Positions 23,497 through 37,968 of a stretch of DNA of 64,000 nucleotides are shown piece by piece (position 1 is the first letter of the stretch; every line of letters begins with the position of its first letter). The DNA is from Mesorhizobium sp. (GTDB taxonomy: Bacteria > Pseudomonadota > Alphaproteobacteria > Rhizobiales > Rhizobiaceae). Location of the stretch: the NCBI RefSeq assembly GCF_016793485.1, contig NZ_JAEULZ010000001.1:124001-188000 (forward strand). Direction: 5' to 3'. The notes under the pieces were generated by a model that saw nothing but the letters and a program-made list of their open reading frames with translations, was not told the origin of the DNA and made no database searches. The position numbers and the translations under genes are program-made.

Positions 23497-25278
23497 TCAG
23501 GCCAGTGGCGTCGCATAGACGGGCGTCGGAATTCCTTCCATGCGCGCCTTGATCTGCATGGCCACGAACTTCGAGAAGAAGCGCTGTAGGGCGAGGTTGC
23601 CGCCCTGGAACCAGAGGTTCTCTTGCGCAACCGGCTTGTACATGTTGCGCAACTCGCCATGCCAGGGACCGGGATCGTGTCGGGTGCCCGAACCAAGCCC
23701 CCAGCAGGTGCCGATCGCATCGGCGACCTCGCGCGACACAATTCCGGCCACGACCTCGTGCATGGACTGGAAACCGGTGGACTGGATAATCGCGTCGGCT
23801 TGGATCTCGGAACCGTCGGCGAAGCGTATGCCGCTGGCTGTGAGCGTCTCGATCTCGACGCCTGACTTCACCTTGATCTCGCCGTCGATGATGAGCTGCG
23901 ACGCGCCGACATCGACGTAGTAGCCCGAACCGGTTCGATAGGCCTTCATCATCAAGCCGGTCTCGTCGGGACCAAAATCGAGCAGGAAGCCGGTCGCGGC
24001 CAGCTTGCGGTAGAACTCAGCATCGCGTGCGCGGATGCGATCGTAGAGCGCCTTCTGTTTTGTCGGCTGAAGTGCGAAGGGCGTTGCCGCTGCGATCATG
24101 TCTGCCTTGTCGACGTCTATTCCGTCTGCGACCGCCTGTTCGGAATAGATGTCGAAGGCCATCTCCATCAGTGTTTCCGATCGCACCACGGTGGTGGCCG
24201 AGCGCTGCACCATGGTGACGTCGGCGCCCGCTTCCCAGAGATCGACGCAGACATCGTGCGCCGAACTCGCGCCGCCGATGACGGCCACCTTCTTGCCCTT
24301 GTATTTCGCGCCATCGGAGTACTGGCTGGAATGAAGGATTTCGCCCTTGAAGTCCGCCGATCCCGGCAGGCCGATCATCTTGGGCGGGCCGTACGCGCCT
24401 GTTGCGAACACGAGCTGCGCGGGCTGCAGGACGATCTCCTTGCCGTCGCGCCGAAGCGTAACCGTCCAGCGCTTCGCGGCCTCGTCGAATTTCGCGGCAA
24501 CGCATTCCGTCCCGCCCCAGTAGGTCAGTTCCATGACCTTGACGTACATTTCCAGCCAGTCGCCCATCTTGTCCTTGGGCGTGAAGACCGGCCAGTTTGC
24601 AGGGAAGGGAAGGTAGGGCAAGTGATCGTACCAGACGGGGTCGTGCAGCACGAGCGAGCGGTAACGGTTGCGCCAGGAGTCGCCGGCCTTTGCGTTCTTT
24701 TCGACGATCACGGTCGGAACGCCAAGCTGCCTGAGGCGGGCACCGAGCATGATGCCGCCCTGTCCGCCGCCAATGATCAGGCAATAGGGATCGGTGCCGT
24801 TGGCAAGGCCGGCTTCTTCTTCCGCCCGGCGTTCGGTCCAGGTCTTGCGGGTCCGGTCGGCGCCATGGCGCACGCCCATCGGGCGTGTGAAGCCGATCTG
24901 TTCCTCATGTCCGTCAAGCGATTGCAACGTGGTGAGAATGGTTCGGCATCTGCCGTCTTCCAACCTCACGATGCCGGTCCCGATCCCTGCCGTCGTCGTG
25001 AAGGTGAACCATGCCTCGACAGGCTCCGTGCCGGTGCCGGATGCCGACGTCACGGTCCATTCGGCAGGCGTCGTCGCATCAAGTTTGGCTTCAAGCATCG
25101 CACGGATAGCGGCCTTGCCTTCCATGGTCTTGATGTTCCAGGTGAAGGCCAGGAAGTCGCGCCAGTAGCAGTCGTCTGCGAACAGCTCCAACGTTCCGTC
25201 CAGGTCGCCTTTCGCCAGCCTCTCACTGAATGCTGCCAGCCAGATCGAGGCCTTGGCGGAAGGTGAAGTCTCGTGCAT
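23497..25278 (-). CDS. Flavin-containing monooxygenase with N-terminal NTF2/SnoaL-like domain
   Basis: 593 residues. Residues ~8-125 form an NTF2/SnoaL-like domain (LFADDCYWRDFLAFTWNIKT). The rest is a two-dinucleotide-fold monooxygenase: FAD motif GGGQGG at 170-175, FMO fingerprint FKGEILHSSQY at 310-320 (FxGxxxHxxxY), NAD(P) motif GGASSA at 335-340, and ATG motifs at 292-294 and near STGFQSM. Class B monooxygenases insert one oxygen into N, S or carbonyl substrates using NADPH. The fusion recurs in bacteria but its substrate is unknown. The gene stands between a converging AGE isomerase and an RpiR regulator on the same strand, 44 bases away, which may be co-transcribed. Confidence 0.85.
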   Translation of the reverse strand: MHETSPSAKASIWLAAFSERLAKGDLDGTLELFADDCYWRDFLAFTWNIKTMEGKAAIRAMLEAKLDATTPAEWTVTSASGTGTEPVEAWFTFTTTAGIGTGIVRLEDGRCRTILTTLQSLDGHEEQIGFTRPMGVRHGADRTRKTWTERRAEEEAGLANGTDPYCLIIGGGQGGIMLGARLRQLGVPTVIVEKNAKAGDSWRNRYRSLVLHDPVWYDHLPYLPFPANWPVFTPKDKMGDWLEMYVKVMELTYWGGTECVAAKFDEAAKRWTVTLRRDGKEIVLQPAQLVFATGAYGPPKMIGLPGSADFKGEILHSSQYSDGAKYKGKKVAVIGGASSAHDVCVDLWEAGADVTMVQRSATTVVRSETLMEMAFDIYSEQAVADGIDVDKADMIAAATPFALQPTKQKALYDRIRARDAEFYRKLAATGFLLDFGPDETGLMMKAYRTGSGYYVDVGASQLIIDGEIKVKSGVEIETLTASGIRFADGSEIQADAIIQSTGFQSMHEVVAGIVSREVADAIGTCWGLGSGTRHDPGPWHGELRNMYKPVAQENLWFQGGNLALQRFFSKFVAMQIKARMEGIPTPVYATPLA

Positions 25279-25322: not shown

Positions 25323-26282
25323 TCAATCGCCCAGCGGCTCCAGAACCTTGCCCTTGCGGTGGTTCAGGACCGTGTATTTGATGCGCCGAAGCGTCTCGCG
25401 AGAAGCTGGGTCGAGCCTGTAGCCGACCGCAGTGGATACGAGATCGATGATCGCGAGGAAGGCGTAACGCGATGCGGTCGGTTTCAAGGGATCGGGAAAT
25501 TCGGGGACATCGACGGTCAGCGCGATATCCGCCTCGGCGGCAAGGTCGGAGTCTGGCGCGGTGATCGCTATCGTCTTGGCGCGATAGTGCTTGGCGAGCG
25601 TCACGGATTCGACGACTTCGCGCGTCCGGCCCGTACTCGAAATCGCGATGACGACGTCATTGGGCTTCAGCGTCGAAGCGTTCATTTTCATCACGTAGGG
25701 GTCGGAGTGGGCTGAAACGACGACGCCATATCGGAAGAGGCGGTTCTGCGTTTCCTGGGCCAGCGCGGTGGAACTTCCTCCGAGCCCGAAAACCACCACT
25801 TGATGCGCGCCGGCAATCAGTTCGCCGCAGCGTACGATGTCGGCCGGTTCCACGCTCCGCTCGACCAGGCTGAGCGCCTTGCGCGCTTCGCCGAACACGA
25901 CGTTCCACAGAGGCGAGCCATCTTCGCTCGGCTCTGGCGGGGGGAGGGGCGACAGATATAGCCTGCCGACAACGACGCTCTGTGCCAGCTTCAGCTTGAA
26001 ATCACGAACGCCGTCGCAGCCGATCGCGCGGCAGAACCGCGTGACCGTGGGCTCGCTGACATCGGCGCGCCTGGCGATCTCCGCGTTCGAGGCGTCCACC
26101 GAAAACGTGACGTCGGCAAGAACAACGTCCGCAACCCGGCGCTCCGCCGGGCGCAACTCACTGTAGGAATCCCTGATCTGCGAAAGAATGTCAGGGATGT
26201 GCTGCGAATAGGGTTCGTTCTTGTCCTCGCCGCGTTGGGGATCGGCTTTCCCAGCGATTTGATCGAGCGCACTGTCAGTCAT
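25323..26282 (-). CDS. RpiR/MurR family transcriptional regulator (HTH + SIS domain)
   Basis: 319 residues. The N-terminal HTH_6 domain (LRPAERRVADVVLADV, then NAEIARRADVSEPTVTRFCRAIG) is followed by a SIS sugar-phosphate-binding domain (VVVFGLGGSSTALAQ; VIAISSTGRTREVVE). Such proteins sense phosphosugars and regulate adjacent catabolic genes. It is divergent from the ABC importer operon starting at 26520, which is presumably its target. ATG 26282 was chosen; the open frame extends further upstream but would place ~50 low-complexity residues before the domain. The intergenic region contains several TGTAA-type inverted elements. Confidence 0.9.
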   Translation of the reverse strand: MTDSALDQIAGKADPQRGEDKNEPYSQHIPDILSQIRDSYSELRPAERRVADVVLADVTFSVDASNAEIARRADVSEPTVTRFCRAIGCDGVRDFKLKLAQSVVVGRLYLSPLPPPEPSEDGSPLWNVVFGEARKALSLVERSVEPADIVRCGELIAGAHQVVVFGLGGSSTALAQETQNRLFRYGVVVSAHSDPYVMKMNASTLKPNDVVIAISSTGRTREVVESVTLAKHYRAKTIAITAPDSDLAAEADIALTVDVPEFPDPLKPTASRYAFLAIIDLVSTAVGYRLDPASRETLRRIKYTVLNHRKGKVLEPLGD

Positions 26283-26337
26283 GGCTTGTCCCACCTCGTC
26301 CCGCAAGGATGCAGACTCCGAACTTTCATAGCCAGAA

Positions 26338-26492
26338 TGTAGGAAACTTACATGCAAAACAAGCGAAGAAACGCCAGAAAATTGGGATTTTTTTGAATTT
26401 CGTGGTTTGCCAATCTGTAAGCTTGACTCCATAAGTCGGATAGTTACAGACTAAAGAAAATCGCTGCAGTACGCTTCAACGAGACTGTAAGC
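26338..26492. promoter_or_regulatory. Divergent regulatory region with repeated TGTAA/TTACA elements
   Basis: Between the RpiR gene and the importer operon lie TGTAGGAAACTTACA (26338-26352, nearly palindromic) and an inverted pair TCTGTAA (26414-26420) / TTACAGA (26444-26450). CTGTAAGC occurs twice (26415-26422 and 26485-26492). Several RpiR-family regulators bind TGTA-type palindromes, so these are probable operators. A possible sigma-70 promoter, TTGACT (26423) to TACAGA (26445) with a 16-base spacer, sits inside the inverted pair, ideal for repression. Confidence 0.55.
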
Positions 26493-26519: not shown

Positions 26520-27344
26520 ATGACAGGCGGCAATTCAGGCCATCCAAAGCTGCGGGTGAAAGGCGCGACCAAGGTTTATCAAACCCGGTCTGGCGATCTG
26601 CTTGCGATCGACCGCTGCTCGCTGGATATCCAGGAGCGCGAAATCGTCTCGATCGTTGGCCCTTCGGGCAGCGGCAAGACCACGCTCCTGTGGTGCATGT
26701 CGGGCCTGCATCACCTGACGGCGGGCGAGGTCTTGCTCGATGGCAAACCGGTGAACGGGCCTACGCGGCAGATCGGCATGGTCTTCCAGGAAGCGAACCT
26801 GCTGCCATGGCGCGATCTCGACGCGAACATCAATTTTCCGTTCGAGATCATGGGCACGAAGCCCGATCGCGTCTGGGTCGATGAGTTGTTGAATCGCGTC
26901 GGGCTGGAAGGCTTTGGCGGGAAGTTTCCGCGCGAGCTTTCGGGTGGCATGCAGCAGCGCGCGGCGCTCGTGCGTGCGCTCTCATACAAGCCTTCCGTCC
27001 TTCTGATGGACGAACCGTTTGGTGCGCTGGATGCATTCACGCGCGAAGAAATGAACAGGCTGGTCGAGGAAATCTGGCTCGACAGGCCGACGACCATCGT
27101 TTTGATCACCCACTCGATCGAGGAGGCGATCTTTCTGTCCGACCGTATTGTCGTGATGAGCCCGAGGCCTGGCAGGGTCGCGAGCATCCACAAAGTAGAT
27201 TTCCAGCGTCCTCGCTCGATCGAAATCATGGCGACCAAGGAAGTTTTCGACCTCACCAACACGATCAAGATGGAAATTATCAAGATGCAGCAGCGCCAGC
27301 CGGCCAAGCCGGCTACCGACGCGATACAGCCCGCGGCGGAGTGA
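26520..27344 (+). CDS. ABC transporter ATP-binding protein (SsuB/TauB-type)
   Basis: 274 residues, one nucleotide-binding domain. Walker A GPSGSGKTT (~48-56), Q-loop MVFQEANLLPW, signature LSGGMQQR and Walker B LLMDEPFGALD are all intact. The QEANLLPWR block is typical of nitrate/sulfonate/taurine-type importers. The predicted partner permease starts 7 bases downstream and the binding protein follows. As the first gene of the ten-gene operon divergent from the RpiR regulator, it should energise uptake of the compound degraded by the downstream enzymes. Confidence 0.92.
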   Translation: MTGGNSGHPKLRVKGATKVYQTRSGDLLAIDRCSLDIQEREIVSIVGPSGSGKTTLLWCMSGLHHLTAGEVLLDGKPVNGPTRQIGMVFQEANLLPWRDLDANINFPFEIMGTKPDRVWVDELLNRVGLEGFGGKFPRELSGGMQQRAALVRALSYKPSVLLMDEPFGALDAFTREEMNRLVEEIWLDRPTTIVLITHSIEEAIFLSDRIVVMSPRPGRVASIHKVDFQRPRSIEIMATKEVFDLTNTIKMEIIKMQQRQPAKPATDAIQPAAE

Positions 27345-27351
27345 GAGCAAA

Positions 27352-28197
27352 GTGAGCGAGACCGACGCAATTCCTGAGTTCAAGGCCGGTCACGCCGCCG
27401 GTGGCGATGTAGGCCTGAACAACATGTCGGCCCTGACCTCGGGGCCGGGCATCAAGTCGTTCGGCGAGGTTCTCGCGATCCTGGTCGTCGCCGTGATCAT
27501 CATCGGCGGTACCGAGCTATTGCTGAACATCTTCGAGGTTCCGCAATATGTGCTGCCCAAGCCCAGCGAGATCGCGCTTGCGCTCGTAACAGAGTTTCCA
27601 CTGATCGCTCCGCATCTTGGGTACACCCTGGTCGAGTTGCTTGCAGGATTTGCCATCGGTGCGACGGTCGGGCTTGTTCTGGCCGCGGTCATCACGCAAT
27701 TTCCCTTCGTCGAGAAGATCGTCACCCCCTACATCCTGCTGCTCGTCACGACGCCTATGCTGGCGCTCGTTCCGTTGCTGATCCTGCGCTTCGGCTTCGG
27801 CTACGAGCCACGCATTATTGCCGTCGCTCTCGCATCCGGCCCGATGGTCATGATCAATGCCGCGACCGGCTTTCGCCGAGTCGATGCGGGCAAGATCGCC
27901 CTTGCGCGTTCCTATGGAGCTTCGACCTTCCAGATATTCTGGAAGGTCCGCGCGCCGATGGCGCTGCCGATGATCTTTGTCGGCCTGATGGTCGGCTCGA
28001 TCTTCGGCCTGCTGACCGCGGTCGGCGCTGAAATGGTTGGCGGCGGCTTCGGCCTTGGCAACCGCCTGACGTCCTATTCGTCGATGATCCAGATGCCGCA
28101 ATTCTTCGCGGTGGTCCTGATCCTTTCGATATTGGGCATTCTCATCTACGTGCTCTTCTTCCTGCTGGGGAAGAAGTTCGCGAGCTGGGAGGCCTGA
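27352..28197 (+). CDS. ABC transporter permease (SsuC/TauC-type)
   Basis: 281 residues with a ~35-residue cytoplasmic N-terminus and six membrane helices. The EAA-type coupling loop is RSYGASTFQIFWKVRAPMALP (shortened here). PQYVLPKPSEI and VGAEMVGGGFGLG are typical of the nitrate/sulfonate permease group. The start is GTG at 27352, seven bases after the ATPase stop, with GAG-rich sequence before it. It forms the channel with the preceding ATPase. Confidence 0.92.
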   Translation: MSETDAIPEFKAGHAAGGDVGLNNMSALTSGPGIKSFGEVLAILVVAVIIIGGTELLLNIFEVPQYVLPKPSEIALALVTEFPLIAPHLGYTLVELLAGFAIGATVGLVLAAVITQFPFVEKIVTPYILLLVTTPMLALVPLLILRFGFGYEPRIIAVALASGPMVMINAATGFRRVDAGKIALARSYGASTFQIFWKVRAPMALPMIFVGLMVGSIFGLLTAVGAEMVGGGFGLGNRLTSYSSMIQMPQFFAVVLILSILGILIYVLFFLLGKKFASWEA

Positions 28198-28269
28198 ACC
28201 AGACCTGCTGCCGGGAGGAATGGCATCAGGAATAAACCAGAGAAACGAACATCATAAGGGGTAGCTGAA

Positions 28270-29415
28270 ATGATGAATCGCCGTATCTTCCTGCAGGTTT
28301 CCGCCGCTGGCGTCGTGACTGCCACCACGCTCGGTCGCACCCGTCCGGCAAGCGCCGAGGCCTATTCGAAATTCACCTGGATCTCGCCGCGTGGCACGTT
28401 GGAAGTGCTCGACGACTATCCCTTCTGGATCGGCAAGAAGATGGGGTACTTCTCGAAAGACGAACTGGGCATCGACGTCGACATGCAGCCCGGTCCGTCT
28501 GACGGCACCGCGACGGTCAAGTTCGTCGATGTCGGCCAGGCCGACATGGGCTTCCCGTCACCAGGCGTGTTCTCCTTTGCGCTGGAAAACGGCATGAAGC
28601 TTAAGTCCGCCTTCCACATGGGCGCCAAGGACACGTTCAGCCTGGCCTTCCGCAAGGGAGAAGGCACGAACGATTTGAAGACGCTGGAAGGCAAGACCAT
28701 CCTTCTGGGCTCCGCCGCATGGCAGTCGATCGTCGATCCGATGCTCGGCGTCCAGGGCGTCGACATCACCAAGGTGAAATATGTCGAGGCCGGTTGGCCG
28801 ACCTGGGCAACCGCGCTGAAGGCGGGTCAGGGCGATGCAGCGCTGTCGTGGGAAGGTCTGCGCGCCGAATGGATCGGCAGCGGATTGGAGTTCGAGTACT
28901 GGCTCGGCGTTCAACGCTCGCCGCTCTTCGCCAACACCTTCGTCGTGCGCGCTGCCGATCTCGACGATCCGGACAAGAAGGCCTTCCTCGAGAAGTATCT
29001 GCGCGGTTGGGCCATGGGCCTCGAGTTCGGCTACCAGAACCCGCGAGCAGCTGTCGAAGCAGTGTTCGAACAGTTCCCGACGCTTGCATCGAACATTGGT
29101 CCGGAGCTCGGCGTCACCTCGATCCTGCAGCAGATCGCCGTGTTCCGCGGCGACATGGACAAGCGCGCTGGCTGGGGTGACCACAACATGGCGCAGTGGC
29201 AGACCTTCTTCGATGAGATTTACAGGCTCAAGCAGGTCTCCAACCCGATCAAGGCCGAGGACGTCTGCTCCAACGCCTGCATCGCCGCCGCCAACGACTT
29301 CGACCATGCCAAGGTCAAGGCTGATGCCGACGGCTACAAGCTCAGCGACGCCTTTGCCGCGATCGATGTGGAGAAGGTCAAGGCGAATCTCTACAACCAG
29401 GCCGTTCCTGGCTGA
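28270..29415 (+). CDS. ABC transporter substrate-binding protein (NMT1/SsuA-like, Tat-type signal)
   Basis: 381 residues. The N-terminus NRRIFLQVSAAGVVTATTL fits a twin-arginine (Tat) signal with cleavage near SAEA. The mature part is a type II periplasmic-binding fold of the NMT1/THI5 group: GKKMGYFSKDELGIDV, DVGQADMGFPSP, GDAALSWEGLRAEWI. These proteins bind small organic anions or heterocycles such as sulfonates, thiamine precursors or phthalate-type acids. It is 72 bases from the permease and is followed by a stable hairpin. The ligand should be the substrate of the downstream enzymes. Confidence 0.9.
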   Translation: MMNRRIFLQVSAAGVVTATTLGRTRPASAEAYSKFTWISPRGTLEVLDDYPFWIGKKMGYFSKDELGIDVDMQPGPSDGTATVKFVDVGQADMGFPSPGVFSFALENGMKLKSAFHMGAKDTFSLAFRKGEGTNDLKTLEGKTILLGSAAWQSIVDPMLGVQGVDITKVKYVEAGWPTWATALKAGQGDAALSWEGLRAEWIGSGLEFEYWLGVQRSPLFANTFVVRAADLDDPDKKAFLEKYLRGWAMGLEFGYQNPRAAVEAVFEQFPTLASNIGPELGVTSILQQIAVFRGDMDKRAGWGDHNMAQWQTFFDEIYRLKQVSNPIKAEDVCSNACIAAANDFDHAKVKADADGYKLSDAFAAIDVEKVKANLYNQAVPG

Positions 29416-29434
29416 TCGATTTCCAAAAAGTAAA

Positions 29435-29459
29435 TGCGGGCGGCGACCGGCCGCCCGCA
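29435..29459. other. Strong intergenic hairpin after the binding-protein gene
   Basis: Arms TGCGGGCGGC (29435-29444) and GCCGCCCGCA (29450-29459) pair over 10 bp with a 5-base loop. No T-run follows. Hairpins after binding-protein genes often protect the upstream mRNA and lower expression downstream, letting the binding protein be made in excess. Confidence 0.6.
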
Positions 29460-29485
29460 ACCGGTAAACATCAGGGGAGGGCCGG

Positions 29486-30571
29486 ATGGCCGACAAAGTC
29501 AGAGTTCTTGTCGTTGGGCTGGGCAACATGGGTGCCTCGCACGCCAGCGCCTATCACCGCAATCCCGGCTTCGAGATCGTCGGGCTGGTGAGCCGGACGA
29601 TCAAGTCGAAGAAGATTCCGGACGAGCTGAAAGGCTATCCGTTGTTTGAGAATTATGACGAGGCGCTGGCCGCTACGAAGCCCGATGCCGTCTCCATAAA
29701 CACATGGCCTAACACACACGCGGAATACGCCATGAAGGCGATAAACGCCGGCGCGCATGTCTTCATGGAAAAGCCGCTGGCGACCAACATCGAGGACGCC
29801 GAGGCAGTCGTTGAGCTGGCTCGCGAGAAGAACAAGAAGCTCGTGCTGGGGTATATCCTGCGGGTCCATCCGAGCTGGGTGAAATTCATCGAACTCGGCA
29901 AGACGCTGGGCAAGCCCCTGGTCATGCGTCTCAACCTCAACCAGCAGAGCAACGGGCCTGCCTGGTCATGGCACAAGAACCTGATCGACAGCCTGATCCC
30001 GATCGTGGATTGCGGCGTGCATTATGTCGATGTGATGTGCCAGCTGACAGACGCCAAGCCGGTGCGTGTGCATGGCATCGGCGCGAAGCTCTGGGCAGAC
30101 GCTGCCAAGCAAAATTACGGCCATCTCCACGTCACCTTCGATGACGGATCGGTCGGCTGGTACGAAGCCGGCTGGGGCCCGATGATGAGCGAGGAAGCCT
30201 TCTTCGTGAAGGACGTGGTCGGTCCAAACGGTGCGGTGTCGATCGTCCCGGGCCACTCGGAGGGCAAGGATCAGCTCGCCGACGTGTCCGACTCGGCAGA
30301 CATCGACCGCCATACCAAGACCGACGCGATCCGTTACCACCATGCAGAAGTCGGGCCGGACAAGAACTTCGTCAAGAAGGACGAGATGTTCAACATGACG
30401 GACGAGCCTGGTCATCAGGAACTCTGCGATCGCGAACAGGCCTTCTTCCTGAAGGCTATTCAGGAAGACCTCGACCTCAGCGAATCCATGGATGCGGCAG
30501 TCAACAGCCTGCGCATCGTGCTCGCCGCAGAACAGTCGATCAACGAGAAACGCGTCGTCGAACTGGCCTGA
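29486..30571 (+). CDS. Gfo/Idh/MocA family oxidoreductase
   Basis: 361 residues. The Rossmann motif VVGLGNMGASHA is at ~10-21, the family EKP motif in FMEKPLATN at ~94, and the catalytic-domain segment IVDCGVHYVDVMCQL contains the conserved Asp/His. Family members oxidise hydroxyl groups of sugars, inositols and glycosides with NAD(P), often at C3. A strong ribosome-binding site (GGGGAGG) lies six bases before the ATG. It is the first enzyme gene of the operon after the importer and likely acts early, perhaps making a 3-keto intermediate. Confidence 0.9.
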   Translation: MADKVRVLVVGLGNMGASHASAYHRNPGFEIVGLVSRTIKSKKIPDELKGYPLFENYDEALAATKPDAVSINTWPNTHAEYAMKAINAGAHVFMEKPLATNIEDAEAVVELAREKNKKLVLGYILRVHPSWVKFIELGKTLGKPLVMRLNLNQQSNGPAWSWHKNLIDSLIPIVDCGVHYVDVMCQLTDAKPVRVHGIGAKLWADAAKQNYGHLHVTFDDGSVGWYEAGWGPMMSEEAFFVKDVVGPNGAVSIVPGHSEGKDQLADVSDSADIDRHTKTDAIRYHHAEVGPDKNFVKKDEMFNMTDEPGHQELCDREQAFFLKAIQEDLDLSESMDAAVNSLRIVLAAEQSINEKRVVELA

Positions 30572-30600
30572 GCCAACTCAACGTTCCATCGACCAGCGGA

Positions 30601-30617
30601 GCGGGCTTTGAGCCCGC
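30601..30617. other. Intergenic hairpin between Gfo/Idh and amidohydrolase genes
   Basis: GCGGGCT (30601-30607) pairs perfectly with AGCCCGC (30611-30617) around a TTG loop. It lies 30 bases after the dehydrogenase stop and 33 bases before the next start, without a T-run, and may be an mRNA processing or stability element inside the operon. Confidence 0.5.
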
Positions 30618-30650
30618 CCGATGCCGGCCGAAACAACCGGAGAAGAATCG

Positions 30651-31865
30651 ATGAGTGAATCGGCAGCCGAGCAGGACTACGATCTTGTGCTCGCGGGTGG
30701 CCGTGTCCTCGACGAGCGCAACGGCGTCGACGGCTTCTTTGACGTTGCGGTGAAGAACGGCAGGATCGCCGCCGTAGGTCAAAATCTCGCGGTGAGGGCC
30801 AGACGCATCGAGGACGTCAGCGGCGCCATCGTCACTCCCGGCCTGATCGACATCCACACGCATGTCTATCACAAGGCGACGTCGCTCAGCGTCGATCCGG
30901 GCTTCATCGCGCGGCGTTCGGCGACCACGACGATGGTTGACGCAGGAAGCGCCGGGGCTGGGAACTACGATGGATTCCGCGACTATGTCATGGCGCATTC
31001 GCCCTATCGCATCTTCGCGTTCCTCAACATCTCGTTCCCGGGCATCTTCGGGTTCGACAAGGGCGTTTCCATCGGCGAGGCGACGCTGCGCCACATGCTG
31101 CCGGTCGACCGTTGCGTGGCCAAGATCGAGGCGAACCGGGATCGCATTATCGGAGTGAAGGTGCGTATCGGTGGGCCGGTGACCGGCGAACTGGGGCTGG
31201 GTGCGCTTGAGCTTGCGCTGGAGGCGGCAAACACCGTTGGCCTGCCGCTGATGACGCATATCGGCACCGCGCCGCCGAGTTATGCCGACGTGGTGTCGAT
31301 GCTGCGGCCCGGCGATATCCTCACCCACTGCTTCCGTCCCGCGCCGAACTGCGCTCTCGGGCCGGATGGCCGCGTTCTTCCAGAGGTGCGGGCAGCGCGC
31401 GAGCGTGGCGTTCTTTTCGATATTGCCCATGGCATGGGCGCGTTCGGCTACGAGACGGCTGAGGGCGCGTTGAATGATGGCTTCAAGCCGGACCTGATCT
31501 CGTCCGACGTGCATGTCATTGCCGTCGAAGGTCCCGGCTACGACCTGCTGCACACGATGAGCAAACTTTTGAATTGCGGGTTGTCGCTGCCCGAGGTGAT
31601 CGGCATGTCGTCGAGCCGCCCCGCGCTGGCGATCCGCAAACCGGAGCTTGGGCATCTCGGCGTCGGCGCGCCGGCAGATATCACAGTCCTGCGGCAGGTG
31701 GACAGCGACTACGTCTTCGAGGACGTGGTCGGTACGAAGAGGCAGGGGCACACGCTCCTGCAGCCGGTCTCCGTCTATCTTGGCGGCAGGTCGATGGAGA
31801 TCGCGCGCAGGCCGTTCGAGGAACCGTTCATTCTCGGCGGATCCTGCTGTGGTCGCCATTCTTGA
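30651..31865 (+). CDS. Amidohydrolase/deacetylase family metallohydrolase (COG3964)
   Basis: 404 residues, amidohydrolase superfamily, often misnamed dihydroorotase. The metal site is complete: H69 and H71 (DIHTH), K170 (GVKVRIGG, likely carboxylated), H203 (MTHIG), H226 (LTHCF) and D286 (SSDVH). A characterised COG3964 protein of Agrobacterium was reported to hydrolyse acetyl-(R)-mandelate, so esters or amides of D-configured 2-hydroxy or amino acids are credible substrates. ATG 30651 gives MSESAAEQDY and is preferred over an upstream frame extension. It is followed after 11 bases by the TIM-barrel-like gene, in the same operon. Confidence 0.85.
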   Translation: MSESAAEQDYDLVLAGGRVLDERNGVDGFFDVAVKNGRIAAVGQNLAVRARRIEDVSGAIVTPGLIDIHTHVYHKATSLSVDPGFIARRSATTTMVDAGSAGAGNYDGFRDYVMAHSPYRIFAFLNISFPGIFGFDKGVSIGEATLRHMLPVDRCVAKIEANRDRIIGVKVRIGGPVTGELGLGALELALEAANTVGLPLMTHIGTAPPSYADVVSMLRPGDILTHCFRPAPNCALGPDGRVLPEVRAARERGVLFDIAHGMGAFGYETAEGALNDGFKPDLISSDVHVIAVEGPGYDLLHTMSKLLNCGLSLPEVIGMSSSRPALAIRKPELGHLGVGAPADITVLRQVDSDYVFEDVVGTKRQGHTLLQPVSVYLGGRSMEIARRPFEEPFILGGSCCGRHS

Positions 31866-31876
31866 GGGGAGAGACG

Positions 31877-33055
31877 GTGAGTTACAAAGCCATCTACACC
31901 TATGCCTGGGACCTCGCCGAGACCGGCGTTCCTGCCGCGACGAAGGAATTCCGCGACCTCGGCCTCGACACGGTCACGATCGCAGGCAGCTATCATGCCG
32001 GCAAGTTCATGCGGCCCCATGGCAAGGCGGGCAAGGTGTTTTTCCCTGACGACGGCACGGTCTATTTCAGGGCCGATCCTTCGCGCTACGGCGCGATCAA
32101 GCCCGTTCAAAACGGCCCCCTCGGCGAACGCGATATACTGCGCGAACTGACCGACGATGGAAGCATGGCCGTGAACGTCTGGCTGGTGCTGCTGCACAAC
32201 ACGCGGCTGGGCATGGCGCATCCGGACTCGGTCGTGCGTAATGCCTTTGGCGACCCCTATTTCTACAATCTCTGTCCCTCTGCGCCGGAGGCTCGCGCCT
32301 ACGCGGTCGGCCTCGCGAGGGATGTAACCCAGAGCTACCCGGTGCGCGGCATTTCCGTGGAAGCTCCCGGCTTCACTCCCTATTCGCATGGCTACCACCA
32401 TGAATTCGCGCTGATGAAGTCGAACAAGTGGCTGGAGAACATGCTCGGCCTTTGTTTCTGCGAGCATTGTCTTGGCGGAGCCGAGAAGGCCGGCATCGAT
32501 GCGCGCCGCTTCAAGGCGGAAGTGGCTGATGACATCCACGCCTATCTCGACAGCGATATCGACTATCCCGACGATATGGCTGCCGCGTTTTGGCAGGCGG
32601 ATGTGGCAACAAGCGGCGACCTGCGCGCCTATCTCGATTTCCGCGCTGGCGTGGTGACATCGCTGATCGCCGAAATCCGCGCCGCCGTCCGCCCTGACGC
32701 CGAGGTCGCCGTCATCCCATCGGTCGCGCGGCCGACCGGCGGCTGCTGGTACGAGGGCAGCGATCTGGCGGCATTCGCCGAGACTGCCGGCATCATCGAG
32801 GCATGTTTCTACGAGCCTTCGGCAGCGCGCGTGAAGACGGATCTCTTCGACATCCGGCGAAGGCTCAAGGGCAAGGGCAAGCTGCGCGGCATCCTGCGTC
32901 CCTCGCATCCGGACATTTCCAGTAAGGGCGAGTTCCTCGAGGCCGTCGCCTCGCTGCGCGCCGGCGGCGTTGACGAGCTTGCCTTCTACAACTGGGGCCA
33001 TCTGCGTCGGGCGAACTTGGGCTGGATCGGTGACGCCCTGGGAGGTGCGGCATGA
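31877..33055 (+). CDS. Unrecognised protein, probable TIM-barrel hydrolase-like fold
   Basis: 392 residues from GTG 31877, no signal peptide, so cytoplasmic. I do not recognise the family. Alternating strand/helix segments (DTVTIAGSYHAG, MAVNVWLVLLHNTR, VRGISVEAPGF, GILRPSHPDIS, VDELAFYNWG) suggest a TIM barrel like those of glycoside hydrolases. The Glu after GISV sits where the acid/base of clan GH-A enzymes would be, and SVEAPGFTPYSHGYHHE is rich in polar residues. A CFCEHC motif (CxxC, ~residue 194) could bind a metal. It overlaps the next gene by ATGA, so it belongs to the operon. A glycosidase or isomerase role is possible, but no function is assigned. Confidence 0.8.
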   Translation: MSYKAIYTYAWDLAETGVPAATKEFRDLGLDTVTIAGSYHAGKFMRPHGKAGKVFFPDDGTVYFRADPSRYGAIKPVQNGPLGERDILRELTDDGSMAVNVWLVLLHNTRLGMAHPDSVVRNAFGDPYFYNLCPSAPEARAYAVGLARDVTQSYPVRGISVEAPGFTPYSHGYHHEFALMKSNKWLENMLGLCFCEHCLGGAEKAGIDARRFKAEVADDIHAYLDSDIDYPDDMAAAFWQADVATSGDLRAYLDFRAGVVTSLIAEIRAAVRPDAEVAVIPSVARPTGGCWYEGSDLAAFAETAGIIEACFYEPSAARVKTDLFDIRRRLKGKGKLRGILRPSHPDISSKGEFLEAVASLRAGGVDELAFYNWGHLRRANLGWIGDALGGAA

Positions 33056-33831
33056 GCGGGCAATTTGCAGGCAAGACCGTTGCGATCACCGGTGCGGCCG
33101 GCGGCATCGGCCAATGGCTTTGCCGCTTCTTCGGACGCGAGGGCGCAACGATTGCCGCGCTCGACCGTAGCGACAAGGTGAACGATCTTGTCGCTACCCT
33201 GGGAGCCGAAGGCATCTCGGCCAAGGCGGCGGTCGCCGACATCGCCTCCGCAGAAGCGGTGAAGGCGGCTTTCGACGGTTTCGGCGATGTCCATCTCCTG
33301 ATCAATAATGCCGGCGTCTCGCGGCATCCGACGCTCGCAGTCACCGACCCCATGGGATGGGAGGCCGACATGGCCTCCAACCTCAATGGCGCTTGGGCCT
33401 GCGCTCATGCGGTCCTGCCCCAGATGGTGCAGCGCCGGTCAGGCAACATCGTCAATGTAGGTTCGGTCAACGGGCTGTCGGCGCTTGGCGATCCCGCCTA
33501 CAGCGCGGCGAAAGCCGGCATGATCGCCATGACCAAGGCGATTGCCATGGAATACGGCCGCTACGGCATACGCTCGAACTGCGTGCTGCCAGGCACGGTG
33601 CGCACGCCGATCTGGGATGAGCGCAAGGCCAAGGACCCAAACGTGCTGAAACAGCTGGAGCGGTGGTATCCGCTCGGCCGCATCGTCGAGCCCGACGAGG
33701 TCGCGCGGGTCATCGCCTTTCTGGCATCGGATGCAGCCAGCGCTGTCACTGGCGTCGCGCTGCCCGTCGATTGTGGGTTGACCGCCGGCAACATCGTCAT
33801 GGCGCGCGAACTGACGCTGGAAGATTTCTGA
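33052..33831 (+). CDS. SDR family NAD(P)-dependent oxidoreductase
   Basis: 259 residues. Cofactor motif TGAAGGIG (~14-21), NNAG, catalytic Ser in VGSVNG, YSAAK (YxxxK), and C-terminal VTGVALPVDCGLTAG. It overlaps the preceding unknown gene by four bases (ATGA) and precedes a Gfo/Idh dehydrogenase by 24 bases with a strong ribosome-binding site. It probably oxidises or reduces a carbonyl intermediate of the same pathway; the substrate is unknown. Confidence 0.9.
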   Translation: MSGQFAGKTVAITGAAGGIGQWLCRFFGREGATIAALDRSDKVNDLVATLGAEGISAKAAVADIASAEAVKAAFDGFGDVHLLINNAGVSRHPTLAVTDPMGWEADMASNLNGAWACAHAVLPQMVQRRSGNIVNVGSVNGLSALGDPAYSAAKAGMIAMTKAIAMEYGRYGIRSNCVLPGTVRTPIWDERKAKDPNVLKQLERWYPLGRIVEPDEVARVIAFLASDAASAVTGVALPVDCGLTAGNIVMARELTLEDF

Positions 33832-33855
33832 GCCGGGATTCTGAGGAGGGAGCAC

Positions 33856-34854
33856 ATGAACAGTCTGCGCATAGGTGTGATCGGGCTCGGCTGGTTCGGC
33901 GAAATCCATGCCGAAACGATATCCGGCATTCCGAATCTCGAACTGGCCGCGCTCTGCACGCGCACGCCCGACAGGCTTGCCGCCATGGGCGAGAAGTTTG
34001 GTGTGAAGAAGCTCTACCGCGACTACAACGACCTGCTCGCCGATCCCGATATCGACGCGGTATCCATCTGCACAATGTGGGACCAGCACAGGGAGCCGGC
34101 GATTGCGGCGCTGAAGGCCGGCAAGCACGTCTTCCTGGAAAAGCCGATCGCCTCGACTGTCGAGGATGCCAAAGCCATCACCGCCGCCTCCAAGGGCGCG
34201 AAGGGCATCCTCTTCATCGGCCATGTCGTGCGTTTCAATCCGCGCTACCGCATGGCCAAGCAGGCCATCGACGAAGGGCGCATCGGCAAAATCGTGGCCT
34301 TATCCTCGCGGCGCAACATTCCGGCCGCATGGACGCCGACCATCCTCAACAAGATTGGCCCGATCGTCGGCGACGCCATCCATGACACCGACATCATGCT
34401 CTGGTTCACCGGCGACCGCGTCGTCTCGACCTATGCCCAGACGACCGATGTTCGCGGCCTGAAATTTCCCGATATCGGCCAGACCATGTACCGCTTCGCA
34501 GGCGGCGCTACGGCGACGCTGGAAACCGTCTGGTGCATGCCGGAAAAGACCCCGTTCGACATCGACGAGCGTATGTCGATCATCGGCACCGAGGGCATCA
34601 TCCATGTGCAGGACACGTTCCCGAATCTCGGCATCGTCGATGGCAATCGCCTGCATTCGCCCGACACGACCTATTGGCCCATGTTCAACGGCGTGCGCGG
34701 CGGCGCATTGCGCGATGAGTTCAGCTATTTCACGGATTGTGCGCTGAATGGAAAGTCGGTGGCGATCGGCACGCCCGAAGACGCCACGGCCGCATTGCAG
34801 GCGACGCTCGCCGCCGAGGAATCCGCGCGAACCGGTGAAGTGGTGAGGATCTGA
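33856..34854 (+). CDS. Gfo/Idh/MocA family oxidoreductase
   Basis: 332 residues. Rossmann motif IGLGWFGEIHAE, EKP motif in FLEKPIAST (~95), and the catalytic helix region VGDAIHDTDIMLWF with the conserved Asp and His. It resembles myo-inositol 2-dehydrogenase-type members. It is the second such dehydrogenase in the operon; a pair can act on different intermediates or run as oxidation followed by later re-reduction. Its stop shares a base with the next start (TGATG). Confidence 0.9.
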   Translation: MNSLRIGVIGLGWFGEIHAETISGIPNLELAALCTRTPDRLAAMGEKFGVKKLYRDYNDLLADPDIDAVSICTMWDQHREPAIAALKAGKHVFLEKPIASTVEDAKAITAASKGAKGILFIGHVVRFNPRYRMAKQAIDEGRIGKIVALSSRRNIPAAWTPTILNKIGPIVGDAIHDTDIMLWFTGDRVVSTYAQTTDVRGLKFPDIGQTMYRFAGGATATLETVWCMPEKTPFDIDERMSIIGTEGIIHVQDTFPNLGIVDGNRLHSPDTTYWPMFNGVRGGALRDEFSYFTDCALNGKSVAIGTPEDATAALQATLAAEESARTGEVVRI

Positions 34855-35204
34855 TGGCGCTCGACTATGAATTCGATCACGTCGGCATCACCACGACCGA
34901 GCCGCAGCCGCAGGAGGATTGGGTCGAGGCCAGCAAGATCTGGGTCACCAATCCGCGCAATCACCCGGAGCACATCGAGTTTTTGCGCTACCGCGATGAC
35001 AGCACCGTGCCGGACGCGGTGCGCTACAATCCGCACGTCGCCTACCGTGTAAAAGACCTCAAGCCCCATATCGAGGCTGAAGGCGTCGAGATCCTGATCC
35101 CGCCATTTGTTGTTGGGGATTTCCTCGAAGTGGTTTTCGTGCGCAAACACGGCATGGTTTTCGAGTATATGCGCTACCTGAAGGACGGCTGGTTCGGAAA
35201 CTAG
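34854..35204 (+). CDS. Small VOC (glyoxalase/dioxygenase fold)-like protein
   Basis: 116 residues. The opening YEFDHVGITTTEPQP and the later NPHVAYRVKDLKPHIEAEGV and KHGMVFEYMRYL match the paired beta-alpha-beta-beta-beta modules of the vicinal oxygen chelate fold, with candidate metal ligands His and Glu (HVG, HVAY, EY). VOC proteins catalyse isomerisations, epimerisations or ring cleavage through an enediolate. It is translationally coupled to the dehydrogenase gene before it (TGATG), so it may isomerise or cleave that keto product. Reaction unknown. Confidence 0.75.
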   Translation: MALDYEFDHVGITTTEPQPQEDWVEASKIWVTNPRNHPEHIEFLRYRDDSTVPDAVRYNPHVAYRVKDLKPHIEAEGVEILIPPFVVGDFLEVVFVRKHGMVFEYMRYLKDGWFGN

Positions 35205-35237
35205 AGCCCGACGGCTGCTCGCGCAGGAAGGAACGCC

Positions 35238-36344
35238 ATGACGGATTTGCCCGATGCCGTAAGTTCACGGCTTGAGCCTCTCGAGCGAACGCTGGAGACT
35301 CTTGAAACTCCATCGGTGCTGATCGACGCCGACATTGCCGACGCCAATCTGCGTCGCTGGCAGGAGCGTTGCGACAAGGCTGGCATGGCCAACCGCCCGC
35401 ACATCAAGACGCACCGGTCTGTCGCATGGGCGTTGCGCCAGGTCGAACTCGGCGCGAACGGCATCACCGTGCAGACGGTCGGCGAGGCCGAAATCATGGC
35501 CGATGCCGGTATCAAGGATCTGTTCCTGACCACGATGACGTTTGGCCCGGCGAAGCTGGCGAGGTTGGGCGAAGTGGCGAAGCGCGCGGACGTGGCGGTC
35601 GTTGCCGACAGCCGCGAGGCGGTGGATGCTGTCGCCGGCGCGGCGAGGTCCGCTGGCGCAAAGATCAAGGTACTCGTCGAGTGCGAAACCGGGGCAGGGC
35701 GGTGTGGACTTGCTCATCCGGACGAGATCGCGGGATTGGCGACTTACATCGCGAGCCAGGACGGGTTGACCTTCGGTGGCCTGATGACCTACCCGGCAGC
35801 CGGGAAGCGCCTGCAGGGCGAACAGTTGCTGCAAGGCGCCATCGCAGCCTGCAAGGCGGCCGGGCTGGACGTGCCCACGGTTTCCTCCGGCGGCAGTCCC
35901 GACATGTGGCTGGACGATGGGCTCGCGCCGGTCACGGAATATCGCGCCGGCACCTACATCTACAATGATCGCTCACTGATGATACGCGGCACCGCCACTG
36001 CTGAACAATGCGCGATGACTGTGCTGGCTACCGTCGTCAGCCGGCCAACACCGGAACGCGCCATCATCGATGCTGGATCGAAGGCGCTGACCTCCGACCT
36101 GCTCGGCCTCAATGGCTACGGTATGCTGCAGGAGCACCCGGAAGCGGTCATCTATCAGTTGAACGAGGAACACGGCCTCGTCGATGTGTCCAAATGCGCG
36201 ACGCCACCACAAGTTGGCGACAGGGTTCACATTCTGCCCAACCACACATGCGTGGTCTCGAACCTCTTCGACCGCATGTTCATCGTGAGCAATGGCAAGC
36301 TTGTCGGAGCGCTTCCCGTGGATGCGCGCGGCAAGTCGAACTGA
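35238..36344 (+). CDS. PLP-dependent D-serine dehydratase/D-threonine aldolase-like enzyme (DSD1 family)
   Basis: 368 residues. It has an alanine-racemase-type PLP barrel with the Schiff-base Lys57 in RPHIKTHRS, followed by a C-terminal beta domain. The C-terminal metal site reads H336-T-C338 (in PNHTCVVSN). HxC is the zinc site of eukaryotic-type D-serine dehydratases, whereas D-threonine aldolases use HxD, so a dehydratase on a beta-hydroxy D-amino acid is favoured. The next gene is RidA, whose job is to hydrolyse the enamine/imine such dehydratases release. This makes a D-3-hydroxy amino acid a likely pathway intermediate. Confidence 0.82.
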   Translation: MTDLPDAVSSRLEPLERTLETLETPSVLIDADIADANLRRWQERCDKAGMANRPHIKTHRSVAWALRQVELGANGITVQTVGEAEIMADAGIKDLFLTTMTFGPAKLARLGEVAKRADVAVVADSREAVDAVAGAARSAGAKIKVLVECETGAGRCGLAHPDEIAGLATYIASQDGLTFGGLMTYPAAGKRLQGEQLLQGAIAACKAAGLDVPTVSSGGSPDMWLDDGLAPVTEYRAGTYIYNDRSLMIRGTATAEQCAMTVLATVVSRPTPERAIIDAGSKALTSDLLGLNGYGMLQEHPEAVIYQLNEEHGLVDVSKCATPPQVGDRVHILPNHTCVVSNLFDRMFIVSNGKLVGALPVDARGKSN

Positions 36345-36355
36345 AAGGAAAGACA

Positions 36356-36718
36356 GTGACCAGACAGCATTTCGGAACATCACACGTCCCGCTTTCGCCC
36401 GCCGTGCGCGCCGGCGATTTCGTCTATGTCTCGGGACAGGTGCCCGTCGTGGACGGCAAGATCATCTCGGGTGGCATCGGCGAGCAGACGAAGCAGGTTC
36501 TGGAGAACATCTCTACCGCGCTGAAGCTCGCCGGCTGCGAGCTGTCCGACGTGGTCAAGACTACGGCATGGCTGAAGCATGCCGAAGATTTTGCGGGCTT
36601 CAACGCAGCCTATGCGCCGTTTTTCCCGACCAATCCGCCGGCCCGCTCCACGGCGGAATCGCGCCTCATGATCGATATCCTCGTGGAGATCGAGGCGATC
36701 GCCTACAAGCCGCTCTGA
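36356..36718 (+). CDS. RidA family enamine/imine deaminase
   Basis: 120 residues from GTG 36356. Typical RidA features are PAVRAGDFVYVSGQVPV near the N-terminus and the C-terminal ARSTAESRLMIDILVEIEAIAY, which contains the substrate-binding Arg. RidA hydrolyses reactive 2-aminoacrylate-type intermediates of PLP dehydratases. It follows the DSD-like gene by 11 bases and closes the operon before a perfect hairpin at 36720-36741, supporting a shared step with that enzyme. Confidence 0.9.
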   Translation: MTRQHFGTSHVPLSPAVRAGDFVYVSGQVPVVDGKIISGGIGEQTKQVLENISTALKLAGCELSDVVKTTAWLKHAEDFAGFNAAYAPFFPTNPPARSTAESRLMIDILVEIEAIAYKPL

Positions 36719-36719
36719 G

Positions 36720-36741
36720 GATCCGGGGATTGCCCCGGATC
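36720..36741. terminator. Perfect hairpin between converging RidA and SDR genes
   Basis: GATCCGGGG (36720-36728) and CCCCGGATC (36733-36741) form a perfect 9-bp stem with an ATTG loop, two bases after the RidA stop. It has no clear T-run, and probably marks the 3' end of the large operon and of the opposing SDR gene. Confidence 0.6.
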
Positions 36742-36774: not shown

Positions 36775-37506
36775 TCAGATCGTCCAGCCACCGTCGATAT
36801 TGTAGGCCTGTCCGGTCGTGTAGGTCGCCCCGGCCAGATAGACGGCGAGATCGGCGATCTCCTCCGGGGTGCCGATGCGGCCGATCGGCTGGCGGGCGAT
36901 GAAGGCCTTTTTCGCGGCATCATAGTCGCCCTGCGCGCGCAGGCGGTCGTCGAGCGAGGGGCTTTCCACCGTGCCGGGGCAGATGCAGTTGCAGCGGATG
37001 TTCTTGCCGACATAGTCGGCTGCGACGGCCTTGGTGAGGCCGATGACCGCCGCCTTGGATACACCATAGGCGAAGCGGTTCGGCACACCCTTGATGCTGC
37101 CCGCCACCGAGGCGATGTTGACGATCGCGCCGTCGTTTCGTTCGATCATCGCCGGCAGGACCGCACGGATGGTGCGGATCATGGACCGGACGTTGAGGTT
37201 GATTGCGAAATCGAAGTCGTCGTCCTTCATTTCCAGGATGGTGCCGGCATGGACGAAGCCGGCGCAGTTTGCGAGCACATCCACTTCGCCGATGCCGTCG
37301 ACGAACGACTTCACGGCATCATCGGAAAGAACGTCCAGCTTGGCGGTGGTGATGTTCTTTTCACCACCGATCTCGTTCAGCTTCACGAGATTCACGTCGG
37401 TCGCGTGGACGATGGCGCCGGCTTTCGCAAAGGCGAGAGCGGTCGCCCTGCCGATACCCTGTGCAGCGGCGGTGACGAGAACGGTTTTTCCGGTGAGAGT
37501 GCTCAT
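36775..37506 (-). CDS. SDR family oxidoreductase (BDH2/2-keto-3-deoxy-L-fuconate dehydrogenase-like)
   Basis: 243 residues. TAAAQGIG replaces the usual TGxxxGIG at the N-terminus, followed by NCAG, Ser in NIASVAG and YGVSK. The segment HATDVNLVKLNEI with its short spacing is typical of the cytosolic 3-hydroxybutyrate dehydrogenase / 2-keto-3-deoxy-L-fuconate dehydrogenase branch. The gene is on the minus strand downstream of a sugar mutarotase and a mandelate-racemase-type dehydratase gene, so oxidation of a 2-keto-3-deoxy sugar acid is the best guess. It is 122 bases from the mutarotase gene. Confidence 0.82.
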   Translation of the reverse strand: MSTLTGKTVLVTAAAQGIGRATALAFAKAGAIVHATDVNLVKLNEIGGEKNITTAKLDVLSDDAVKSFVDGIGEVDVLANCAGFVHAGTILEMKDDDFDFAINLNVRSMIRTIRAVLPAMIERNDGAIVNIASVAGSIKGVPNRFAYGVSKAAVIGLTKAVAADYVGKNIRCNCICPGTVESPSLDDRLRAQGDYDAAKKAFIARQPIGRIGTPEEIADLAVYLAGATYTTGQAYNIDGGWTI

Positions 37507-37628
37507 GACGCTTCCTGTTTCCTGTTGCCGCGAGGCAGGCCGCTTCCCGGCACCTTCCGCAAGCGGCAGCGATCTCTATGTCTTCTCGCGGCGCTCGACA
37601 ATGGAGACCGCTCAGCAGCGGGCCTCGT

Positions 37629-37958
37629 TCAATCAACGTGGAAGACGTTTTCCATCTGCGCCCACCACTCGCCTTCCTTGCGCGTCGCGAGCGGCGCCTG
37701 CATAGGCTCGCAGATCGTCCACCATTCCTGCGTCTTGGGGTCGGCAGCCATCTTTGCCGTGTCGGCCGCCCAGTCCGTTCCGTGATACTCGAAATAGGCG
37801 AATAGCAGGTTCTCGGGCTCTTTCAGGAAGATCGTGTAGTTCCTGATGTTGCACGCGGCGATCGTCGCCAGCACCTCCGGCCAGACATCCGCGTGTATCC
37901 GCTTGTATTCGGCTATTGCCTCCGGCTTGATGCCGAGCACGCTTCCCATACGCTGCAT
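37629..37958 (-). CDS. L-rhamnose/L-fucose mutarotase (RhaM family)
   Basis: 109 residues, close to the usual ~104. The signature is clear: IKPEAIAEYKRIHADVWPEV with the catalytic His, then IRNYTIFL, and an aromatic-rich end (EWWTICEPMQ, EGEWWAQM). These dimeric ferredoxin-like proteins interconvert anomers of 6-deoxy sugars. The start ATG 37958 follows GGAGG by five bases; the frame is open further upstream but that region shadows the racemase gene. It lies 10 bases after the mandelate-racemase-type gene and supports an L-rhamnose, L-fucose or similar substrate for this module. Confidence 0.9.
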   Translation of the reverse strand: MQRMGSVLGIKPEAIAEYKRIHADVWPEVLATIAACNIRNYTIFLKEPENLLFAYFEYHGTDWAADTAKMAADPKTQEWWTICEPMQAPLATRKEGEWWAQMENVFHVD

Positions 37959-37968
37959 AACGTCCTCC

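Follow-up and report, generated by a model that had tools for sequence, protein, structure and literature searches.

The 64,000-nucleotide stretch of Mesorhizobium sp. DNA analyzed here (contig NZ_JAEULZ010000001.1, positions 124,001 to 188,000; referred to as the window) carries at 26520-36718, on the plus strand, a run of 11 genes lying divergent from a gene for an RpiR/HexR-type regulator (25323..26432, minus strand; PF01418 66.1 bits, PF01380 65.4 bits). The true start of the regulator is probably internal, near 26282, as judged from two near relatives (L015, L016) of about 322 amino acids each. The first three genes of the run specify an ABC importer, made by an ATPase (26520..27344), the best matches of which are taurine, sulfonate and nitrate types, every one below cut-off, a permease starting at GTG (27352..28197; PF00528, 87.6 bits), and an NMT1/THI5-type substrate-binding protein (28270..29415), which scores 68 bits against PF09084 (cut-off 20.5) and far below cut-off against TIGR01728. 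Next on the same strand are a Gfo/Idh/MocA dehydrogenase (Gfo1, 29486..30571), a COG3964 amidohydrolase/deacetylase (30651..31865, alternative ATG at 30621), a TIM-barrel protein with a GTG start (31877..33055), a short-chain dehydrogenase (SDR, 33052..33831) recognized by Pfam, a second Gfo/Idh/MocA dehydrogenase (Gfo2, 33856..34854), a small VOC-type protein of 116 amino acids (34854..35204), a fold-III pyridoxal phosphate (PLP) enzyme of the D-serine-dehydratase type (35238..36344; PF14031, PF01168), and a RidA family protein (36356..36718; PF01042, 104.3 bits), whose GTG start lies 11 nucleotides 3' of the PLP gene. Residues are numbered from 30621 in the COG3964 protein and from 31865 in the TIM-barrel protein.

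Profile and sequence searches of Pfam, NCBIfam and the PDB located all the gene types named in a first-pass annotation of the window, at the place and on the strand given there, and the divergent orientation of the regulator is as it had been described; the run had been counted as ten genes and holds 11. The ATGA and TGATG couplings noted in the same annotation are found at two junctions, TIM/SDR (ATGA) and Gfo2/VOC (TGATG), where genes overlap, and not at the remaining eight, where genes are 7-79 nucleotides apart, distances which depend on the start codons chosen in the analysis. The hairpin said to close the run is present as a 9 bp structure (about 36719..36740, plus strand) in a 66-nucleotide stretch folding at -29.1 kcal/mol (z -2.88), but has no T run 3' of it and is absent from the list of the terminator scan. 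A strong GC hairpin (29435..29459), detected by the terminator/hairpin scan, separates the binding-protein and Gfo1 genes; intergenic hairpins 3' of a binding-protein gene are common where the binding protein is overproduced. The terminator scan gave 12 hits vs 10.0 in shuffles, a little excess, and the promoter scan 2 hits vs a shuffle mean of 2.7, no excess. Both the window and 8 of the 9 relatives inspected have TGTAA/TTACA half-sites 5' of the ATPase gene, too irregular for an operator to be claimed.

The operon is real and conserved. One scan of species genomes returned 130 relatives of the TIM-barrel protein, the best 80 of which were kept as loci. Genes in the loci were called by open reading frames and BLAST matches covering at least half of the query, and co-occurrence was counted in the 49 loci reaching 20 kb, the other 31 being excluded. 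As the loci are related, P values are guides only. An SDR gene is directly downstream of the TIM gene in 67 of the 80 loci, and some of the remaining 13 are on contigs ending early. Permease, binding protein, Gfo1, TIM, SDR and Gfo2 genes occur together in 24 of the 49 full-length loci (core loci), in line with the association proposed at first pass. A VOC or glyoxalase-family protein is encoded in all 24 core loci, RpiR in 23, a deacylase in 21, the PLP enzyme in 9, RidA in 7. In the other 25 full-length loci, further core genes are mostly missing (binding protein and Gfo1 are both encoded in one), while 14 carry the deacylase, 14 the PLP enzyme and 16 RidA. Across the 49 loci, deacylase (35), PLP enzyme (23) and RidA (23) genes are found all three together in 18. 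In our view the deepest association, if not a universal one, joins the TIM-SDR pair to deacylase, PLP enzyme and RidA. The related loci are made of exchangeable modules, and do not represent one fixed pathway.

Exchange is best seen in the deacylases and PLP enzymes. The deacylase is of the COG3964 type in 19 of the 49 loci, of the D-aminoacylase/OngB type in 16, and both types coexist in none (P 4e-5 under independence of the loci, which are not independent). Similarly, one PLP clade is found in 12 loci, the other in 11, and the two are never together (P 0.03). Distant enzymes swapped beside the same partners suggest a shared reaction, namely deacylation of a D-amino-acid-like amine, followed by ammonia elimination. 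At a Rhizobium plasmid locus (L002), the TIM gene has Amidohydro_2, AstE/AspA-type, PF14031 and RidA genes for neighbours, encoded on the strand opposite to it. L024 resembles L002 by annotation; in L003, genes of these kinds, none of them annotated as RidA, share the strand of the TIM gene.

The COG3964 protein of the window scores over the NF006689 cut-off (385.3 bits vs 371), and matches PDB 2ogj, which we take to be the COG3964 hydrolase Atu3266, with 204 bits over 351 residues. The family motifs HxH, Lys, His, His, Asp, presumably the metal-site residues of the amidohydrolase superfamily, are retained as in Atu3266 (HTH 79, K180, H213, H235, D296 region). Atu3266 is reportedly active on acetyl-(R)-mandelate. 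Genes of the CutC family lie beside COG3964 and RidA genes at Martelella/Maritimibacter loci (L074, by Pfam; L085 and L091, by BLAST).

The PLP enzyme features the PF14031 domain, the PLP-binding Lys57 and the pair H336-x-C338. H-x-C is kept in it and in 28 of 29 relatives (14 of 14 in its own clade, 14 of 15, one being truncated, in the other). The aligned D-threo-3-hydroxyaspartate dehydratase likewise has H-x-C, while the H-x-D pair of D-threonine aldolases is missing (NHTC in the window enzyme vs SHVD in two aligned aldolases). The window enzyme thus resembles fold-III D-3-hydroxy-amino-acid dehydratases in Lys57 and H-x-C, but is distant from both D-threo-3-hydroxyaspartate dehydratase (143 bits) and D-serine dehydratase (97 bits). 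It is the single PF14031 match in its genome. Among the genomes of 25 of the 80 loci, from which the background rate was derived, 54 PF14031 matches in about 116.8 Mb correspond to about 0.0097 expected per 21 kb, a background with which the PLP enzyme genes in 23 of the 49 full-length loci compare, and 24 of the 25 encode at least one PF14031 enzyme. Of the 30 loci returned, 18 (2 being local copies) share 42-57% identity with the window enzyme.

Genes for later steps mark some of the loci. A 2-keto-3-deoxygalactonate kinase is encoded in 7 of the 49 loci, 6 from Undibacterium and one from Leeia, all Betaproteobacteria, together with TIM, SDR, RidA, PLP enzyme and deacylase. The Leeia oryzae locus adds a 2-dehydro-3-deoxy-6-phosphogalactonate aldolase (289.7 bits, cut-off 207), as well as nagA- and nagK-like genes, both scoring below cut-off. 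A PfkB kinase is found at the Andreprevotia locus (1 of the 49), and the SAR324 locus has nagB above cut-off and a nagA-like gene below. In the genome of the window, kinase and aldolase genes are adjacent on another contig (C52). The kinase being part of the set, a 2-keto-3-deoxy sugar acid is the likely product at kinase-bearing loci, where it would derive from a 2-amino-2-deoxy sugar acid; by analogy, the same may apply to the operon of the window. The kinase at these 7 loci, and deacylase, PLP enzyme and RidA beside a glycosidase-fold protein, fit the first-pass suggestion of an acylated or glycosylated substrate built around one of two cores, an amino sugar or a D-hydroxy amino acid.

The second of these cores would involve no amino sugar. 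The substrate would be a D-3-hydroxy amino acid (D-serine, D-threonine, D-hydroxyaspartate) in the form of an N-acyl or glycosyl conjugate, the sugar genes treating the glycosyl part, and COG3964, PLP enzyme and RidA the amino acid. D-threonine aldolase and D-threo-3-hydroxyaspartate dehydratase are indeed the nearest PDB relatives of the PLP enzyme, and BhcC is the nearest NCBIfam model, far below cut-off. An amino-acid permease at a Rugamonas locus and the AstE/AspA-type gene at the Rhizobium locus point the same way, as do the TIM-linked OngB-type proteins, aminoacylase-like at both residues tested by an ungapped, uncertain alignment. Since OngC, a PLP enzyme of the ong cluster described below, takes D-serine and D-threonine as well (PMC9537276), family matches of the PLP enzyme cannot tell an amino sugar from a D-amino acid. 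The occurrence of the 2-keto-3-deoxygalactonate kinase with the set in 7 of the 49 loci, in one of these with the aldolase, and the carbohydrate-type importers used by other lineages, argue against conjugates of this sort, which are considered a somewhat unlikely substrate.

Neither Pfam nor NCBIfam has a model matching the TIM-barrel protein at E 0.001, and a PDB sequence search gave nothing below E 1. A model built from 41 homologues (mean predicted local distance difference test score 92.5) has as first Foldseek match the C-terminal domain of Escherichia coli PgaB (E 1.7e-11); matches to PgaB include the N-acetylglucosamine complex, and are followed by a fucosidase, GH42, GH156, GH35 and further glycoside hydrolases. 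The substrate of PgaB is poly-N-acetylglucosamine. At E values up to 5, the glycosidase-like family GHL10 (PF02638), to which DigH belongs, is matched by 26 of the 41 members (best 2.8e-7); the window protein reaches 14.2 bits, under the cut-off of 27.9. The GHL10 domain of Cwp19 is assigned lytic transglycosylase activity on peptidoglycan (PMC6016235), and DigH is a denuded-glycan hydrolase (PMC12288456). Residues W15, D16, H44, W106, H111, E166, H178, H179, Y316 and Y375 are the same in all 49 sequences aligned, and D16, E166, H111, H178 and H179 among them might be catalytic. The protein shares with PgaB and GHL10 a glycosidase-like TIM barrel, but differs from them: inspection by eye shows no signal peptide, identity to PgaB is 11%, and the GHL10 score is below cut-off. 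On the basis of the predicted structure, our reading is that it may be an intracellular glycosidase-like enzyme. The family ranges from Rhizobium plasmids to haloarchaea, with no relatives in the viral contigs scanned. On the Haloarcula plasmid pNG700 (L013, 3848-12630), a relative is flanked by a sugar ABC importer and a creatininase-family gene, and by enolase-superfamily, SDR and Rid genes. Glycosaminoglycan use by haloarchaea is dealt with in PMC13260240.

Gfo1 (PF01408) retains the EKP and D-x3-H motifs. A GH109-type role was weighed for it; no GH109 enzyme was recognized among its PDB matches. The VOC protein has no Pfam match and was assigned from residues of the fold family; H9, H61 and E104 are conserved candidate metal ligands. 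Relatives were found in plasmids (4 matches), none in phages. In Bacteroidota plasmids of Parabacteroides (L138) and Aureibacter (L139) they reside beside genes for DhaK/DhaL kinases and LsrF-type aldolases, neighbours which hint at keto-sugar chemistry. A Dak1 gene is found near a glyoxalase-type gene in L063. Gfo2 is similar to inositol 2-dehydrogenase, and this opens to a pathway for a cyclitol, or an amino-inositol of the rhizopine type, in which the Gfo/Idh proteins would be inositol dehydrogenases. The score of Gfo2 is well under the cut-off (174.4 bits vs 355), however, no further iol function is named by the Pfam and NCBIfam matches of the run, and a cyclitol would yield no alpha-amino acid for the deacylase and the PLP dehydratase. 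A cyclitol route is regarded as very improbable.

The reading we prefer, tentatively and with slightly less than even confidence, is that the operon serves the oxidative breakdown of an amino sugar, following the logic of the ong cluster without being a member of it. The sequences show the genes present, their conservation, the swapping of deacylase and PLP types and the catalytic motifs, and a glycosidase-like fold is predicted; we infer substrate, reactions and their order as follows. The NMT1-type ABC importer would take up a compound, probably a glycoside, containing an N-acylated amino sugar, to be degraded oxidatively without early phosphorylation. The glycoside would first be cut by the intracellular TIM-barrel protein. 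Gfo1, VOC and Gfo2 might then oxidize, epimerize and re-reduce one ring position, converting a rarer isomer into a usable one. C1 oxidation by the SDR would give a 2-acylamino-aldonic acid, from which the COG3964 metallohydrolase could strip the acyl group. The resulting 2-amino-2-deoxy-aldonate would be a D-3-hydroxy amino acid, from which the PLP enzyme, helped by RidA, would eliminate water and ammonia to form a 2-keto-3-deoxy-aldonate. The RpiR regulator may detect an intermediate of the pathway.

Several observations weigh against oxidative amino-sugar breakdown. Sugars are seldom the ligands of NMT1-type binding proteins, the roles given to Gfo1, Gfo2 and VOC are guesses, and the match of the TIM-barrel protein to PgaB is moderate (TM 0.59/0.67, 11% identity). 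No kinase or aldolase is encoded within the operon of the window. Other betaproteobacterial loci, from Silvimonas (L087, L093) and Duganella (L092, L099), as well as L102 and L103, have neither the kinase nor most of the set. In 22 readable of 24 OngB-type deacylases near TIM genes, Ser292 and Gln298, two residues which fit OngB to its substrate according to PMC12017989, are missing, Ser292 being replaced by Thr and the aligned Gln298 in every case by one of Tyr, Trp, Met and Leu, in an ungapped, uncertain alignment of the loop that fails to reproduce the AfDam counterpart position of the same paper. A reading specific for N-acetylglucosaminate (GlcNAc1A), tested by these residues, is unsupported; the substrate is probably other than N-acetylglucosaminate itself.

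The gaps in the gene set also count against a single pathway. Among the core loci, 15 of 24 have no PLP enzyme in the fetched stretch, 17 no RidA and 3 no deacylase, so that the single fixed operon pictured at first pass is not seen; 9 of the 49 loci miss deacylase, PLP enzyme and RidA altogether. A PF14031 enzyme is often found elsewhere in the genomes of core loci devoid of it, and the module may hence work in trans or apart from the core. Mesorhizobium sp. YM1C-6-2 has its PLP enzyme and RidA genes in a different operon, next to an RpiR gene belonging to that operon. Such patterns would be expected if two independent functions were neighbours, a glycoside or cyclitol core (importer, TIM, SDR, Gfo1, Gfo2, VOC) and a general module for D-amino-acid salvage, brought together by chance or under a common regulator. 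Yet TIM genes in Undibacterium, Leeia, Martelella and Rhizobium are accompanied by deacylase and PLP genes where the rest of the core is missing, and 21 of the 24 core loci have a deacylase; we regard two unrelated functions as an unlikely explanation.

Oxidative amino-sugar breakdown may be given a more specific form. It is conceivable, if doubtful, that the operon encodes a De Ley-Doudoroff-like route, widespread and so far undescribed, which acts on a galacto-configured N-acetylhexosamine (N-acetylgalactosamine glycosides, for example) and leads through an intracellular glycosidase of a new PgaB-related family, oxidation, epimerization and reduction by the Gfo1/VOC/Gfo2 trio, C1 oxidation by the SDR and deacetylation by COG3964 to 2-keto-3-deoxygalactonate. 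Were oxidative amino-sugar breakdown confirmed, three groups, the PgaB-like glycosidase family, the COG3964 deacylases and the small VOC family, would gain a function, and this type of catabolism would extend from marine chitin degraders to other alpha- and betaproteobacterial lineages. The mutual exclusion of the deacylases yields a testable claim, that COG3964 and D-aminoacylase-type enzymes may catalyse the same reaction in these loci.

After the RpiR gene, a SnoaL + flavin monooxygenase-like gene (23500-25278, minus strand) has a relative in 10 of the 49 full-length loci. Genes convergent to the operon (36775-39081, minus strand) encode an SDR, an L-rhamnose mutarotase and an enolase-superfamily protein, as non-phosphorylating deoxysugar routes do; an adenine deaminase-type gene (39256-41049) is next to them.

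No description of this operon was found in the literature searched on operon or pathway. The first-pass statement that no standard pathway covers it is nonetheless too strong, because the ong cluster of Pseudoalteromonas, which serves oxidative chitin degradation under an RpiR repressor, combines RpiR, an N-deacetylase, a PLP enzyme related to D-serine deaminase, and RidA (PMC9537276). There, OngB deacetylates N-acetylglucosaminate, OngC, which is a fold-III PLP enzyme and a distant relative of D-serine deaminase, yields 2-keto-3-deoxygluconate (KDG) and ammonia, and the RidA-type OngD, of unknown role, is essential for growth on N-acetylglucosaminate (PMC9537276). In contrast to the ong cluster, the operon of the window has COG3964 in place of OngB, an NMT1-type ABC importer in place of the sodium solute symporter, a GHL10/PgaB-like TIM barrel in place of the hexosaminidase OngA, and no clustered KDG kinase, and features in addition two Gfo/Idh proteins, an SDR and a VOC protein. 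Alike in the two are an RpiR gene beside those for a metal-dependent N-deacetylase of the amidohydrolase superfamily, of another type in the window, a fold-III PLP enzyme and RidA, and, if the proposed reactions hold, deacetylation and deamination would precede phosphorylation in both.

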